Under the pieces are notes generated by a model. The model had not been told where the DNA came from, made no database searches, and was given only the letters and a program-made list of their open reading frames with translations. Made by a program: the position numbers and the translations under genes. Source: a virus. Taken from it: DNA of 48,088 bases. The DNA lies in the IMG/VR virus record IMGVR_UViG_3300050016_000029, positions 1 through 48,088 of that record; one strand, given 5' to 3'. Shown here piece by piece: positions 3,092-37,925 of the stretch (position 1 is its first letter; every line of letters starts with the position of its first letter).

Positions 3092-6000
3092 CTACTTTCC
3101 CTTCATCTGTTGCACATATTCGTTCAGCGACTGCGAGTGCCCCTTAGTATGTCCATAGCGTAGACCAGTAGCCACGCTCCACGGACCCTTTGGCTTCTCA
3201 TGTCCTTGGAAGTAGTTGGTGAGGTACTCTACTATCTTCCCTTCTTGGTTATTTGTCAATCCGTTTAGAAGTCCATTCAAAGCTATAACATCGTGGAAGA
3301 CCTTACCCGCACTAGCCTTGTCAGTGATCTTACCTTTACCTATGTCATGGGCCACGTTGGTGATTGAACTCATAGCAGTAGAGATCAATCCTGCCTCTCC
3401 ACCACGACCACCTAGTAGACCGTGAGCAAAGTCGCGGACACCAACAAGGGAGGAGCTAAGACCTAGGCCCAAGGTCTTTGCGGCTTTCACTCCCCAGGAC
3501 TCCTTGTCATTGTTCGAGTAGGGCGTGACTAACTCCTCAATCAATGCTGGGATAATCAAATACCCAACAAGCATACGCGTAGGTACCACTCCCGCCTTCA
3601 ATGCTTCAGCGTAGTCTCCCTGCTTCGCCATTCCCATAGCGTCCTTATACCTCCACGCGATCTCGTATTGCTTCTGCTGCATGTGATTGAAGAACCCATA
3701 GAGGGAAGTGAACCATTGGCCTAGAGGATTGGCGCGCATTATCGAAGGTCGATTGGTAAGCACTGAGGACCCATGAGCCTGTCGTACAGCCATGTCAGCC
3801 TGTTCGATAGCGGAGCCCTTGTCCATGCCTTCAGCAACGAGCTTCTTATACTGCGCGAGCCATGTGGGGACCGAAGACAACAAGTCACTGATAGAGACTG
3901 GCGTAGCACCAGCCGCTATGTGGATGTCGCGGAAGGAGTCAAAGTTAGATTGTGCCCCACGCAGCTTTAGCTCTTGTCCGTGGCCCTCAATCAACTCGGT
4001 GAAGTTCCGCATACGGCGTTGGAGTTCCATACTGTTATCCATCGCCATTCGCCAGTTAGACTTGTTACCTTCTTCGGAACCTTGCATCAGCGTGGCGAAC
4101 TCGCGGGACCAATTCACAATCCCAACCTGCTGCATAGAGTTTACCAAGGCAGTAGTACCATGCTTCATAACCGTGCCAGGGTTGAAACCAATAAGCCCTG
4201 CAATCAGGTTCTGACGGTAGTACTCCAACGACTGCCCTTGCAACTGTTCAGTAAACGATTTGAAGTTAGCTGCGCCAGCCATATCAGTTAGGAAAGACAT
4301 CATCTCTTCGGCTTGGTGACGGCCGTAATGGGCGATCACTGTCCGCTTGAACTCAGGATCGCGAAAGACCTTCGACACCTGCTGAACCGCTGGGCGCATA
4401 GCGATGTCATGGATCATCTGCTTCATGCGTTGGGGAATGATGTCCATATTGAGTTCGACCGGCGCGACGTATCCAGTACGCTGCTTAGTATAGCCTTGGG
4501 GAGTCGTAGCCTTGTAATATGCACTAGCCTCTGTCTCCCCACCAAGTAGCTTCTTACTCTTACCCGGCCTATACGCGTCGTACTTAACAGGGTTATACCA
4601 ACCTTCGTTGACGTCACCATGTGGGTTGGTGAATGGTTCAAGCGGAAGTTTCTGGATGCCCACGTCGCTAGTCTTGTAAGACATCTCATCGGCCATGCTG
4701 AATAGATCATCAAACACATGGCCCACCTTCTGCATTGTACCCCAGTCTTCCTTGGAAGTGTTACGCTTCAACCAAGCATCAGCGATGTCAGGCTCAACAC
4801 CATAACCCTTGAGAAGCTTCTCCCAACTGGACTTGTTTCCGCGATAGGCGAGTATCCCCATCACGTTCCTCTTCCGCATAGGCAACAACTGACCCGTAAT
4901 AGGATCATGCCAAATCGAATTGTCAACCTGTTTATCCATGTACTCGCGGGTTAGGTTGATCCCGGCGTCGTCAAGCTTCTTCTGGAACTGCTTAAGCAGA
5001 CGGTCCTTATAGTTCGAAGCGCTGGTGAAGGGATAGATTAGGTACTTATGAAAGACCCCATTAGGATCGCCTTTGTCGAAGCGGTTAGCCATAGACTCAA
5101 TATTGATAGCACTCCACCACCACGACTTCGCCTGTTCAGCGCGGGTGTTAAGCTTGCGGTCGTAGGGATACACCTTAGCAGGACCTATGTCCCTAATCTG
5201 CTCTAACATCTCCTTCTTAACATCCGCCCACTCAGCGGCCTCGCCTTGGTGATAGACCTTCTTGTCTTCACGCCCGTACTTTTCAATAGCCTTCACGGAG
5301 TCTCGGACTTGGCGGAACTCTTGAACAGTAAGGTCGTCGTATTGCTTCTTGAAGTTCTCATCAAGCATGAAGTCTGGGACGTGTAAGTCTTGTAGCTCAC
5401 TTTGACTTTTGTCTTCCACAAACTCCTTGAAGCTGTTGTAACCTTCCTTACTAAGGTCGCGTTGGATAGCGTCAAGGTCGCGAGTAGTGCGTTTGCCAAT
5501 GCGAGTGAGCATAGTCTGGATAGCGTTAGAGTACTCGGGCGAGATGTTCTTATTAGGCTTCCCAAGTGTCTTAGCCTTCTTGTCAAAGGCAGCCTTCTCC
5601 TTCTCTAACTTGATAGCTTCGCGAGCCATCATAGTGCTAACCTCTCCGCGCTGCGACTCGCGAAAGGCATCCGCGAACTTGCCATCAAGGAGATGTATTT
5701 CAGCTTGTCTATGAGCCTTACCAGCTTCGGCCAGGTTCTTATTGGAGTCTACATCGCCGTTGATCTTATCTGCGAAGAGCTTCTGAACTCCAGACTTAAT
5801 CTGGTCTTTGGTGAGAGGGTACTGTGCGCTGTCAGGTTTAACGCCGGCACGTTCAGCAGCGGCCAAGACTTGTTCGTGTAGAAGGTTCTCTTGAGTTTCA
5901 GACAGAGCCTGATCCTTCGCTTCATCCAGAATATTCTTCTCTAGATCTCCATACTTACTCTGCATCCTACGCTCAGTCTCAGCGTCGATCAGACGCCGCT

Positions 6001-21164: not shown

Positions 21165-21278
21165 CTAGTGAAAGTATAACCACGCACACAGGATCATACC
21201 CCATAGCGCGAAGTTGATCCCAAGTGCTGCAAGCATGGTTAGTGGCTTGTGCCTTTGTGTAGACACAAGCCACTCCAT
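21165..21278 (-). CDS. 37-aa single-TM protein
   Basis: It begins MEWLVSTQRHKPLTMLAAL and continues with one hydrophobic helix to the C-terminus (ALGINFALWGMILCAWLYFH). The ATG at 21278 lies two bases beyond the preceding stop. The basic N-terminus suggests N-in topology. It is small but sits in a coupled operon with little spare space. Role unknown. Confidence 0.6.
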   Translation of the reverse strand: MEWLVSTQRHKPLTMLAALGINFALWGMILCAWLYFH

Positions 21279-21279
21279 G

Positions 21280-22377
21280 TTAGCGAGCCCTACGGCAAGA
21301 TAGTTGGCCGTAGCCGTTATCGGTCGATACCGAGAAGGTGTCATTAGCGACAAGGTACTCATTGGTTGTGGCAGATACTGAGATACGGGTAGGACCAATG
21401 AGGTGATCGCGGCCTAGGACACCAGTTACGTTCGCGGCAGTCTGCTCAACGTGAACGGCGGTGGTGCCTTGTGTACCGATAGTCGTAGCCGCTGGGTTGA
21501 TGGCAGACGAGAACACCGTGAAGGAGGTGGACGAAGCCGGAACACGAGAGACTACACCACGACAATCCCAATCACCAGCGGTAAGGGCGATGCCGGTGAC
21601 GGTAGCCGCAGTGGTAGAGGAGAGTGCTACGCCAGAAGTGCGGGTTTGGGTGCCAGTGCTAGAGCCAGTAGTGGTGACGGCAGTACCGGCTAAAGCGTTG
21701 GCGACAGTCGTAGCAACGGTGTAGGTATTGGCGGTAACACTACCCGGTACGACGTAGTAGGTGGTACCAGAGGTGATGCCGGTAGGCAAGCCACCACCGC
21801 TGTTGGTAAAGACTACCGGGCAAGCACCGACGATAGCGTGTGCAGTGTCGGTGAAGACGCCGGGGGCCGCGATGGTGATAGTGACGGTAGCAGTATTGGC
21901 GTTGCTCAAACAGGAGGTAGTGATGACTTCGCCGACGTAGCCAGCTTGAGCATTGTCGTTGGTAGCTGTACCAGCGGCAGCGCCTGGGCCTATGATTTGC
22001 CCGAACCATGCGCTACCAGAGAGTGGGAACAACACTACCCGACCGTAGGTAGAGCAGAAGGTCAAGGTACCTGAAGAGCCGTTGATCGTTTCGCTAGAGG
22101 CGGGGGTTAGTACTAAGCAAGAGTTAGCCCCACCTACGTTACCGAAGGTATCTACAACCTCTAACGAGTTGGTATTACAAGTTTGACCTACGCAGGTTGC
22201 GCTTGCGGAGGGTAAGGAGATTACACGATTGGCGGAGATAGCTACCGTAGGCACCAGCCGAACGTCGGTAGTGAGGACCGTGTAGGCTGCGTTGGGCAGA
22301 GCCGTGTAGGCATCAACAGCTAACGCTGGGGCGACGAAGCCCCAGGTTAGTGCTAGAGCGAGTAGGAGCTTTCTCAT
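21280..22377 (-). CDS. Secreted hypothetical protein with Sec signal peptide
   Basis: A 365-aa protein starting at the ATG at 22377 (ATGA with the gene before), giving MRKLLLALALTWGFVAPALA and a canonical ALA cleavage site. The mature part is Thr/Ala/Gly/Val-rich, predicted beta, with several Cys pairs (ATCVGQTCNTNS), which would form disulfides only if exported. This makes real secretion likely. Family not recognised. It lies in a run of similar signal-peptide genes. Confidence 0.75.
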   Translation of the reverse strand: MRKLLLALALTWGFVAPALAVDAYTALPNAAYTVLTTDVRLVPTVAISANRVISLPSASATCVGQTCNTNSLEVVDTFGNVGGANSCLVLTPASSETINGSSGTLTFCSTYGRVVLFPLSGSAWFGQIIGPGAAAGTATNDNAQAGYVGEVITTSCLSNANTATVTITIAAPGVFTDTAHAIVGACPVVFTNSGGGLPTGITSGTTYYVVPGSVTANTYTVATTVANALAGTAVTTTGSSTGTQTRTSGVALSSTTAATVTGIALTAGDWDCRGVVSRVPASSTSFTVFSSAINPAATTIGTQGTTAVHVEQTAANVTGVLGRDHLIGPTRISVSATTNEYLVANDTFSVSTDNGYGQLSCRRAR

Positions 22378-31755: not shown

Positions 31756-31968
31756 ATGACCGAAGGATACTTCGTTGAATACAATGGCGAGTGCTGGCAA
31801 TCAGTATTCCCATCTTGTTACGCTGACATGTCTAGTCTGCATCTAACCATAGATGATGCACTGGACTACATGACCAATGAATGTGGTGTGGACCTCAATC
31901 TAATCGTTGTATGCCCACAGCCAGAACTAATTCAAGAATTGGACACTAGCAATCCCGCTAGTTCCTAG
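31756..31968 (+). CDS. 70-aa early protein with strong ribosome site
   Basis: A near-perfect Shine-Dalgarno (TGGAGGTGAGCT) precedes the ATG. The protein begins MTEGYFVEYNGECWQSVFPS, has four Cys in total and an acidic middle (LTIDDALDYMTNECGVD). Its last codons belong to a 31-bp repeat shared with the next gene (see repeats), giving similar ends (DTSNPASS). Probably highly expressed soon after infection. Family unknown. Confidence 0.75.
   Translation: MTEGYFVEYNGECWQSVFPSCYADMSSLHLTIDDALDYMTNECGVDLNLIVVCPQPELIQELDTSNPASS
31930..31960 (+). repeat. 31-bp direct repeat, copy 1
   Basis: Matches 32254-32284 at 28 of 31 positions. It starts ATTCAAGAATT and ends TAGCAATCCCGCTA, and lies at the 3' end of the 70-aa gene. 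Confidence 0.85.
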
Positions 31969-31977
31969 GAGGGTAGT

Positions 31978-32292
31978 ATGATCTTAACCAATGACTACCT
32001 AGTATGGGAGAAGCCGCATCCTGTATTCCCATTATCGGGAGTGCAACGCATCTATCGCTTCCCATCTGGTTACGGTTTATCAGTTGTTAATCCTCCCGAG
32101 TTGCATGGCTACCCGTTCGCTTGGGAGGTAGCAGTTCTCAAGCACGTCAATGAACAAGGTTTTGGCTATGATCTGGATTATACAACGCCTCTCACAAGTG
32201 ATGTAGAGGTGTTTGATAATAACAGAGATACCAATACCTTCATTCACAAAGCTATTCAAGAATTAGCCAGTAGCAATCCCGCTATTGACTAA
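31978..32292 (+). CDS. 104-aa early protein with strong ribosome site
   Basis: ATG follows CTAGGAGGGTAGT. The protein is aromatic and acidic (VWEKPHPVFPLSGVQRIYRF, then GYPFAWEVAVLKHVNEQGFG). It ends SSNPAID through the same 31-bp repeat as the gene before. The early position suggests host takeover. No known family. Confidence 0.75.
   Translation: MILTNDYLVWEKPHPVFPLSGVQRIYRFPSGYGLSVVNPPELHGYPFAWEVAVLKHVNEQGFGYDLDYTTPLTSDVEVFDNNRDTNTFIHKAIQELASSNPAID
32254..32284 (+). repeat. 31-bp direct repeat, copy 2
   Basis: The second copy of the element at 31930-31960, again at a 3' gene end. It includes the GCAATCCCGC motif. Confidence 0.85.
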
Positions 32293-32396
32293 CTGAGCAT
32301 GGCCAAAGCATTCGCAAGTATAGGAACCTCTGCTCTGCACGTTCCTGCGACTACACGCAAATGCAGCGCCTACGCTCACAAAGGAGAGTGACTACA

Positions 32397-33041
32397 ATGC
32401 CTGTACTGCAAATTCCGGTCGTTAAGGCCGGTTCTAAGGACCAAGCCTTCCTACTCGACATCGACGTTGACAAGATCAGCGACGTGTCATATCAGGAAGC
32501 GCTTCGCCTAGGACTGAAGGAGCTTGCTAATCGTGGCATGAGCAAGCTCACCAAGGCCGCGTTTGATGGCGACGAGGCTAAGCTTCGTGCCGCCGCTGAG
32601 AAGGTAGCACAGACTAACCTCGACAACATCAACTCGGGTAACATCCGCGTCTCTGGTGGAAAGAAGAAAGTCGCCACTGGCGCTATTGCAACTGAGGCAC
32701 TGCGGCTTGCGAAAGCCTTGGTGAAGAAAGGACTGAAGGCGCAAGGCTTCAAGGTGTCCGAGGTGAAGACTTCCGACATCACTCGCCTTGCGAAGGAGTA
32801 TCTCGACACGGATGGTGGTTCGGCTCTGATGGATAAGGCCAAGGCCAACATCGCGGAGCGCGAAGCAACTCCTGTTGAAATGGACTTCAAGGCCTTGAAT
32901 GTCCAAATCGACGATAAGAAAGTCCAAGCCAACGCGAAGAAGAAGGCGGAAGGGAAGACTACGCTTTCCGCTAAGCAAGCTGGCAAGCCTGCCACTCGCT
33001 CGAAGAAGGGAGCCAAGCCGGGCAAGGAGGCTCGGGCGTAA
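32397..33041 (+). CDS. 214-aa Lys/Ala-rich early protein
   Basis: ATG at 32397 is preceded by AAAGGAGAGTG. The middle is helical (LRLGLKELANRGMSKLTKAA, LRLAKALVKKGLKAQGFK). The last 50 residues are very basic (AKKKAEGKTTLS, then RSKKGAKPGKEARA), which is histone-H1-like and suggests nucleic acid binding. The N-terminal strand IPVVKAGSKDQAFLLDIDVD is not basic. A strong hairpin follows the stop. Highly expressed DNA- or RNA-binding early protein is the likely role; no family is recognised. Confidence 0.75.
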   Translation: MPVLQIPVVKAGSKDQAFLLDIDVDKISDVSYQEALRLGLKELANRGMSKLTKAAFDGDEAKLRAAAEKVAQTNLDNINSGNIRVSGGKKKVATGAIATEALRLAKALVKKGLKAQGFKVSEVKTSDITRLAKEYLDTDGGSALMDKAKANIAEREATPVEMDFKALNVQIDDKKVQANAKKKAEGKTTLSAKQAGKPATRSKKGAKPGKEARA

Positions 33042-33057
33042 GCTTCTACTATCAATA

Positions 33058-33083
33058 GGAGTGGGGCAATCCCGCCCCACTCC
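33058..33083 (+). terminator. 10-bp intercistronic hairpin (no U run)
   Basis: GGAGTGGGGC pairs perfectly with GCCCCACTCC around a 6-base loop, 17 bases after the stop of the 214-aa gene. No T run follows, so it may be an mRNA-end stabiliser or processing site and not a terminator. Confidence 0.65.
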
Positions 33084-33091
33084 CCATATGT

Positions 33092-33169
33092 CGGGTGCCT
33101 GTCTTGCACAAGGTTCTCATCTAGGTGAGAATGTTCCATTAGTGATAGTGGAACGCGGATAGGCACCCG
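33092..33169 (+). ncRNA. Structured RNA element with three-armed junction and GNRA loop
   Basis: A 9-bp outer helix (CGGGTGCCT 33092-33100 with AGGCACCCG 33161-33169) encloses three arms. Arm 1 is weak (CTT/AAG, 33103-33112). Arm 2 is TTCTCA/TGAGAA (33114-33131). Arm 3 is TTCCATTA/TAGTGGAA (33134-33153) with one G-U pair and a GTGA tetraloop of the GNRA class. It lies 24 bases before the ATG of the coiled-coil gene. It does not fit a tRNA: no T-loop and no 7-base anticodon loop. It could be a cis-regulatory leader, a processed small RNA or a ribozyme; class unknown. Confidence 0.6.
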
Positions 33170-33192
33170 GCACCCTTCTAGGAGCAATCCAA

Positions 33193-33675
33193 ATGGAACA
33201 GGCTATCCAGGTTAGCCCCGTTACGGAGAGCGAAATGGAACAAGCTCGGAATGTCTTCCAGCGTATGATTGACGGAGTGGTCAACGCTAGTGCGGTGGCT
33301 AATCAACTCAATACTCTGGCGAAGCAAGTGGAAGCTATGAACACTGACTTAGAGTTCCTTCGTATGCGTAATAGGGAACTTGATGAGCAGGTCATAGAGG
33401 TACGCAGGCAGCGCGATCAAGCACTAGCTCGCGTTGAAGAACTCGAACGTTCACGCGGTCACGAGTTCGGGGAGGTGGAAGCGTTACAGCGTGAGGTTGA
33501 AAGTTCTCGTGCTGAGTGTGTTGCCCTTCGTGGTGACTTGGTTGATGCCAAGCGTGATCGTGATGACGCGATGTATTCTAATCTCGACTTGAAGGATCGT
33601 TACGACAGTGCTAAGGCCATGATTGATAAGGCTTCGGCAATCTTCTGCCAAGGCAATCCTACGGAATATCGCTAA
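33193..33675 (+). CDS. Coiled-coil early protein, 160 aa
   Basis: Start ATG at 33193 follows CTAGGAGCAATCCAA. From about residue 40 to 150 it is a nearly continuous heptad coiled coil (LAKQVEAMNTDLEFLRMRNRE, quoted partly; RRQRDQALARVEELER). N-terminal 40 residues are less regular. No enzymatic motif. It lies between the structured RNA and a second hairpin, so its message is flanked by structure on both sides. Confidence 0.75.
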   Translation: MEQAIQVSPVTESEMEQARNVFQRMIDGVVNASAVANQLNTLAKQVEAMNTDLEFLRMRNRELDEQVIEVRRQRDQALARVEELERSRGHEFGEVEALQREVESSRAECVALRGDLVDAKRDRDDAMYSNLDLKDRYDSAKAMIDKASAIFCQGNPTEYR

Positions 33676-37150: not shown

Positions 37151-37204
37151 GCTGGGCGTCCAACCCAGCCTTCCGCGAGTGTACCTGCGCGGGGACAGAC
37201 AGGT
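37151..37204 (+). promoter_or_regulatory. Leader hairpins before the outer-membrane protein gene
   Basis: GCTGGG/CCCAGC (37151-37169) is a 6-bp hairpin. ACCTG (37183-37187) can pair with CAGGT (37200-37204) just before the ribosome site AAAGGAG (37208-37214), and CCGCG/CGCGG can compete with it. This may tune translation. Confidence 0.4.
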
Positions 37205-37220
37205 GCAAAAGGAGACTACA

Positions 37221-37925
37221 ATGCGTTATCGTGCATTACTACTCGGGGGCGCATGTGCACTACTCGCGTTCCCGTCATTCGCAGCCGACCTGCCGGTGAA
37301 GAACCCGCCACAGCCTGTTCCTAACCCTATGGCGGATGTCTTCACTGGATGGTTCCTAGGTGCCGAGGTAGGCGCCGACTGGGGCCATGCGAAACCGTCC
37401 ATCTCAGGAGCGACTAGCATAGACCCGACTGGCTTTGCCGGCGGCGGTTCCCTAGGCTACCGCTCTCAGGTCGCTAACGGATGGTACCTTGGCCTATCCA
37501 CCAGTCTAGACTTAGCTGGCGGCTCTCAGGTCAAAGCTATCAATAACTACACCTCCCTAACCGCCAAGAACGATTGGTTTGGAGCCACGATGGTCCAAGT
37601 CGGCTATCGCGTACTTCCTGACCTTCTCGTCTACGGTGAAGGTGGCGTAGGCTACGGAGCGAAGAAGGCTAAGCTGTTAATCTGCAACACTACCCTAAAC
37701 GACACCGAAGACGGCGTAGGTTGGGCAGTTGGTGCAGGAGCCGACTACAATCTTCGCCATATCACCGGCTATCCTATCTTGGCTACGGTGGAATACCGCC
37801 ATATCGACCTGGGCCAGACTTCCTTTGCCTTCCCGGCTGGTAGCAGCGGCTTCACTGCTGGCGCCAAGGCGAAGATCACCGATGATGCTATCCTTGTAGG
37901 AGCGAAATACAAATTCGGTAGGTAA
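37221..37925 (+). CDS. Outer-membrane beta-barrel protein, Omp25/RopB-like
   Basis: A 234-aa protein starting at ATG 37221 with AAAAGGAG upstream. It has a signal peptide (MRYRALLLGGACALLAFPSF, cleavage after SFA), and the mature start AADLPVK is characteristic of Rhizobiales outer-membrane proteins. The rest is a typical 8-stranded barrel with alternating aromatic residues (FLGAEVGADWGHAKPS, VGYRVLPDLLVYGEGGVGYG, LATVEYRHIDLG) and a C-terminal strand ending YKFGR. It was probably acquired from a host. Possible roles: superinfection exclusion (as lambda Lom-like barrels), envelope remodelling, or receptor masking. It has its own leader and end hairpins. Confidence 0.85.
   Translation: MRYRALLLGGACALLAFPSFAADLPVKNPPQPVPNPMADVFTGWFLGAEVGADWGHAKPSISGATSIDPTGFAGGGSLGYRSQVANGWYLGLSTSLDLAGGSQVKAINNYTSLTAKNDWFGATMVQVGYRVLPDLLVYGEGGVGYGAKKAKLLICNTTLNDTEDGVGWAVGAGADYNLRHITGYPILATVEYRHIDLGQTSFAFPAGSSGFTAGAKAKITDDAILVGAKYKFGR

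Follow-up and report, generated by a model that had tools for sequence, protein, structure and literature searches.

The interval that follows one conserved gene in the early region of a group of uncultured phages seems to be reserved for small folded RNAs. It is also the site of an RNA family, with the loop AGCAAU/AGGAU, that is genuine, new and absent from Rfam release 15. Together, this interval (hereafter the slot) and the family found in it form the main result, beyond the element of the window itself, which is most likely a diverged or replaced occupant of the slot.

The window, by which we mean the whole stretch of DNA that was analysed, is a record of 48,088 bases. Its ends carry a terminal repeat of 136 bases, whose copies differ at one base. 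Comparison of the terminase places the phage with podoviruses of the epsilon15 kind, and the matches, which include Salmonella phages SPN1S and E15, show 41-48% identity. IMG/VR contigs contain close protein relatives, and the phage belongs to a group of uncultured soil podoviruses. Among 50,697 annotated phages, no cultured relative with a homologue of gene 32397-33041, which lies upstream of the element, was found. Similarly, a search with its protein in 84,980 cellular genomes revealed no prophage hosts, and Caulobacter phage Kuura, the top DNA-polymerase match, gives no match to the model of the new family (R1). Two further features of the genome were observed. The gene at 37179-37925 (plus strand) is of the OmpA kind of outer-membrane beta-barrel (Pfam OMP_b-brl, 3e-13), which is unusual for a phage early region, and its product is perhaps a receptor-masking protein. 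In addition, two late genes are separated by a 19-bp hairpin with almost perfect pairing (21217-21300, minus strand), which is among the strongest folds of the genome and is probably a terminator or processing site.

The element of the window folds as a compact RNA between two genes of the same strand, and its coordinates are collected in Table 1.

Table 1. Positions in the window of the RNA element, its helices and its neighbours.
Feature	Position	Strand	Remarks
Upstream flanking gene	32397..33041	+	214 aa; conserved, marks the slot; homologue in 39 of 49 related records
10-bp hairpin	33058..33083	+	GGAGUGGGGC AAUCCC GCCCCACUCC; just upstream of the element
Whole RNA element	33089..33172	+	three-way junction, 84 nt, 35 bp, 14 unpaired bases
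P1, 5' strand	33089..33104	+	UGUCGGGUGCCUGUCU; pairs with 33157-33172
P2	33106..33107	+	GC with GC 33155-33156; 2 bp, preceded by bulged U33105
Unpaired ACAAG	33108-33112	+	in the fold of 33089-33172
First arm	33113..33132	+	8 bp (33113-33120/33125-33132), loop CUAG (33121-33124)
Second arm	33133..33154	+	9 bp (33133-33141/33146-33154), GNRA tetraloop GUGA (33142-33145)
P1, 3' strand	33157..33172	+	first letters GGAU (33157-33160), the word preceding P1' in the relatives' RNA family
Shine-Dalgarno-like region of downstream gene	33176..33181	+	just 3' of P1, not sequestered by the element itself
Downstream flanking gene	33193..33675	+	160 aa, coiled-coil-like; start of the next cistron

The 84-nt element has a minimum free energy of -49.4 kcal/mol (z -8.7, with 0 of 200 shuffles as good), and the 78-nt core at 33092-33169 reaches -43.8 (z -7.2). 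Among 24,002 84-nt segments of the genome (step 4, both strands) the element has the lowest energy, and it remains the genome minimum, at -6.1 sd, after GC correction. It occurs once in the genome, begins 48 nt past the stop of gene 32397-33041 and folds less well on the minus strand. These values, which go far beyond chance, uphold the claim of the first-pass annotation that a compact multi-helix RNA with a GNRA loop is present here. The details of that annotation fare unevenly. Its closing helix, 33092-33100 with 33161-33169, pairs exactly but is only the middle of a P1 that extends to 16 bp, G-U pairs included; an arm counted as 6 bp exists but has 8 bp, and the arm with the GUGA loop, counted as 8 bp, has 9 bp. 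A further short arm (CUU GCAC AAG) is absent from both the minimum-energy and the centroid structures, and the two remaining arms are directly adjacent. The separate 10-bp hairpin proposed upstream does fold, and the distance to the coiled-coil gene, given as 24 bases, is 23 nt when counted between 33169 and the ATG at 33193. The annotation also stated that no plus-strand reading frame uses the segment; mechanical open reading frames do cross it (32899-33162 on the plus strand and 32492-33187 on the minus strand), but neither is likely to be a gene, since both overlap the better-supported gene 32397-33041.

The promoter scan found no promoter-like site between gene 32397-33041 and the gene at 33193, and the element is therefore most likely part of the early message, on the coding strand. 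The 214-aa upstream protein has no PHROGs or Pfam match; its predicted model is mostly helical, and a fold search with it gave no significant match. A 38-nt direct repeat (31930-31967 and 32254-32291, 84% identical) marks the 3' ends of two small genes that follow one another, and each copy terminates in a CAATCCCG hairpin. Hairpins with this loop word stand at gene ends or starts at 31945-31962, 32270-32286 and 33058-33083 on the plus strand and at about 31001 on the minus strand, and hairpins like them, followed by T-runs, are seen in the slots of L394 and L395.

Searches for known RNAs were negative. Neither ARAGORN nor Rfam finds a tRNA in the element, in agreement with the earlier view that it does not follow tRNA rules. 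At the gathering score, Rfam release 15 gives no match in the window, and at E <= 10 only three microRNA or lncRNA chance matches fall within 33000-33250. The comparison with self-cleaving ribozymes that had been suggested leaves a ribozyme reading unsupported, as no family of Rfam release 15, its self-cleaving ribozymes included, gives a gathering-score match. In seven relatives the only Rfam match is a tRNA in L093. BLASTN of the element region against phages returned no match, and BLASTN for homologues of the window element over the related loci returned only chance-like words. A crude three-way-junction descriptor was discarded, being unspecific and by construction blind to the window element itself. 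The part of the literature that was covered holds no description of the slot RNA family.

Neither flanking protein, used as a single query against viral contigs, found a relative, and relatives were obtained through an alignment built from the DNA-polymerase and portal neighbours. The alignment search gave 80 loci with homologues of the upstream protein, and the DNA 3' of the homologue's stop codon was read in 78 distinct loci. Downstream of the homologue, these 78 relatives show a median fold z of -2.2, compared to -0.5 at control positions behind the remaining genes of these phages (P 7e-13), where the controls also cover stops that adjoin the next gene directly; the window, with z -9.8, is the strongest of all slots examined. 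This implies that structure of some kind is kept in the slot despite changing sequence families. Most of the 78 loci hold a very strongly covarying RNA family between the two genes, one that differs from the element of the window, and thus it is the site, and not the window sequence, that is conserved for RNA structure.

The architecture of this family is P1-AGCAAU or AGUAAU-P2-variable part-P2'-AGGAU-P1', with a size of about 45-130 nt and an orientation that always follows transcription. In 57 of the 78 distinct loci, [AG]G[CT]AAT and AGGAT are both present and correctly ordered, and the pair is flanked by complementary bases on both sides in about 50 of the 78. For the covariation test, 27 loci with exactly one word pair (26 distinct) were chosen by the motif words and not by pairing. 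In these 26 rows, each of the 13 P1/P2 pairs has changed on its two sides. Of the cells, 83% are paired, compared to 28-37% after a shift of the partner by one to three columns; double changes are seen in 114 cells, compared to 36 in shuffles; and the covariation score is 0.80, compared to 0.20 in shuffles. The loop bases are invariant while the helices are fully variable. Model R1 was built from alignments trimmed to P1, the loops, P2 and four inner bases on each side, with rows chosen with pairing, and only the 26-row covariation count is free of that choice.

The family is found no more than about 400 nt behind the homologue of gene 32397-33041 (L232-L311, L192-L231), in one or two copies per genome, which can be arranged in tandem in the slot, and it sometimes precedes the homologue (L208, L226). 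In whole related genomes R1 gives 21 matches in 28 records, none of them away from the upstream-gene homologue. As an exact pattern, the commonest form is present in 22 viral contigs, 17 of them with a P1 of at least 6 bp. The same pattern occurs in 47 genome contigs from 84,980 cellular genomes, and these matches are ascribed to chance, since none has a P1 longer than 3 bp. Copies with a 9-bp P1 are found in another gene context on the minus strands of two phage contigs, L313 (87 kb; 4183-4239) and L329 (33 kb; 62-118), in neither of which a homologue of the window genes tested was found. On the gene tree the family has seemingly been gained and lost repeatedly, with presence labels that are rough, some loci with a bulged P1 or with an element before the gene being scored as absent, so that a count of these events would not be reliable. 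Within the window, the words GGAACC and GCCTA had raised the suspicion of a degenerate member upstream of the gene (32290-32400); its fold is not unusual (z -0.7), and this candidate was rejected.

Other structured motifs share the slot. An ACG(C)AAGA...UGAUCU internal loop recurs in 25 cases (L163, L168, L177, L186 and others), in which an average of 4.6 out of 5 flanking positions pair, and is often nested in the AGCAAU/AGGAU family. A third motif, P1-GCACC...GGUAUAUCC...GGCC-P1', contains a helix with a UAUAU loop and is seen in about 10 cases (L177, L184, L223, L254, L258, L272, L295). There may be a fourth motif, with AAGC and UCANAGA next to P1, which was noticed by eye only. In L254 a tRNA-Pro gene (3373-3451, plus strand) lies right after a member of the new family, which implies that the slot can host stable RNAs.

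The element of the window resembles the family in its slot after the same gene, its orientation on the same strand, its size, its long P1, variable in the family, and its geometry, in which 5 nt and GGAU interrupt P1 and P2 (P1-5 nt-P2...P2'-GGAU-P1'). The family has a P1 of 6-10 bp or more and the window one of 16 bp, and GGAU stands directly before P1' in the one and at 33157-33160 in the other. All slots were scanned for GG[AG]U in front of a P1 with 7 bp or more, with the 5' word left out, and this recovers the window element at exactly the family spacing; comparable stems elsewhere (P1 >= 9) show such a geometry by chance at a rate of about 0.2%, a figure that is a guide only because GGAU had been seen before the test was made. 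On the other hand, the 5' strand [AG]G[CU]AA, with its invariant G and AA, is replaced by GUCUU in the window, and the U-A pair followed by a P2 of 3-5 bp gives way to G-C and C-G only, 2 bp in all. L191 likewise has G-C in place of the U-A. The two adjacent arms also set the window apart, as does a score below the reporting level: with filters off, R1 gives 14 matches in the window at E <= 10, and the element is not among them. Position by position, the junction of the family reads A-U, G.A, Y-G, A.G, bulged A and U-A, and that of the window G.U, U-A, C-G, U.G, bulged U and G-C, a correspondence by which the latter may be the family junction in fully paired form. The place of the window among its relatives is not fixed by the gene tree. 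We do not file the window element as a member of R1; it is a neighbour of the family by position and geometry.

The first-pass annotation had looked for the helix to persist in relatives that keep the flanking genes, and here the outcome is divided. The relatives nearest by the coiled-coil gene (L276/L390, with 47% over the best segment, L394-L396 and L270) keep both genes without the element, but most of the others hold the different covarying RNA there. In these nearest relatives the slot contains only a strong hairpin, which often shares the loop of the window hairpin 33058-33083. Since they have no such domain, the window element may be an independent gain; a strong hairpin in relatives without the family is expected if the slot must hold structure.

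Based on the results presented above, our leading but tentative reading is that the window element forms an RNA domain of its own between two cistrons of the early transcript, placed in a slot for structured RNAs. It may be a diverged version or a functional replacement of the family, in which the non-canonical loop AGCAA/GGAU would have become a paired GUCUU/GGAU helix with one bulge. The element would be transcribed together with its flanking genes, after which the long P1 and the two stacked arms would form at once, and the folded junction could act as a domain boundary in the mRNA. Such a domain might shield both adjoining message ends, 3' for the upstream gene and 5' for the downstream gene, from nucleases, and a double-strand nuclease could excise it as a stable small RNA. 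Separation and protection of the two early messages would be the simplest function.

The main rival is that the RNAs act in trans. The slot would then be a cluster of small-RNA genes, processed from the early transcript, whose products have a target in the host during takeover (a protein, an RNA or a ligand), which the relatives' RNAs would contact through their AGCAAU/AGGAU loop as the putative binding site. An invariant loop amid variable helices does point to recognition by something specific, beyond mere stability, and the tandem copies (up to two), the other structured motifs and the tRNA of the same slot, as well as the copies in another gene context (L313, L329), are consistent with it. 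However, the window element is without the conserved loop, and strict placement beside one gene is equally expected of a cis element; we regard this reading as possible, with a lower probability than the intercistronic one. An extended form of it is rather doubtful: the early-operon slot of the clade would hold several new structured-RNA classes (at least AGCAAU/AGGAU, ACG(C)AAGA/UGAUCU and the GCACC/GGCC type), with the window as a further class or a loop-swapped variant, and all of them would act in trans in host takeover.

It is unlikely that the element is a structural relic, that is, a decaying or merely stable copy of a former family member with no role beyond gene spacing. The loss of the loop motif with persistence of the geometry, the nearby relatives that manage without the element and the apparent repeated gain and loss, on partly uncertain labels, would suit a relic, but a relic should lose its helices, and this element keeps 35 pairs in a fold that no other segment of the genome and no other slot examined surpasses. 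Less probable still is a scaffold for translation coupling, in which the folded domains bring the upstream stop near the next ribosome-binding site through pairing of UAGGAGC with the GCUUCUA after the stop. In the window, the entire fold between the two genes is closed by this pairing, whose strength comes 4th of 69 when the ribosome-binding sites of other phages are put in its place; in the 69 phages, however, permuted combinations of leader and binding site pair as well as the native ones (P 0.96). A terminator, attenuator or antitermination site, with hairpin and junction tuning early transcription into the downstream genes, is quite improbable: the slot hairpins of L394 and L395 do precede T-runs, but in the window no T-run follows either the hairpin (33084-33092) or the junction (33173-33180), and the terminator scan reports neither. 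Finally, any perfect inverted repeat could act as DNA, but a DNA-level element (a cruciform, or a fold of one strand, with a role in replication or recombination) is very improbable, as is a mobile repeat, for a single-copy sequence with a far better plus-strand fold, given the G-U pairs in the stems of window and relatives and the constant orientation of the relatives' family with transcription.

The intercistronic domain has partial counterparts in well-studied phages. The RNase III sites of the T7 early mRNA are single irregular hairpins that serve as intercistronic processing and stability structures. The window element is alike in being a folded domain between early genes, co-transcribed and adjoining a ribosome-binding site; it differs in being a three-way junction, and it is a candidate processing site. 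The put RNA of HK022 is part of the leader, near the early promoters, and acts on RNA polymerase; by description it is likewise a structured early phage RNA of about 70-80 nt, whereas the window site lies between genes and not in a leader near promoters. T4 carries clusters of phage tRNAs and small stable RNAs in an early or middle transcript. Stable RNAs within a transcript, as with the tRNA in the L254 slot, recall this arrangement, but the window element is no tRNA.

The reading of phage genomes is directed almost wholly at proteins, and here one intergenic site holds structured RNAs whose covariation is as strong as that of known RNA families, none of them in Rfam. The upstream gene provides a concrete handle for locating such RNAs in a widespread group of uncultured phages, and the window element, being very stable, is a convenient case for experiments. 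Should the RNAs act in trans, they would represent a new kind of phage takeover tool; if they act in cis, they would represent an unusually elaborate separation of two early messages.
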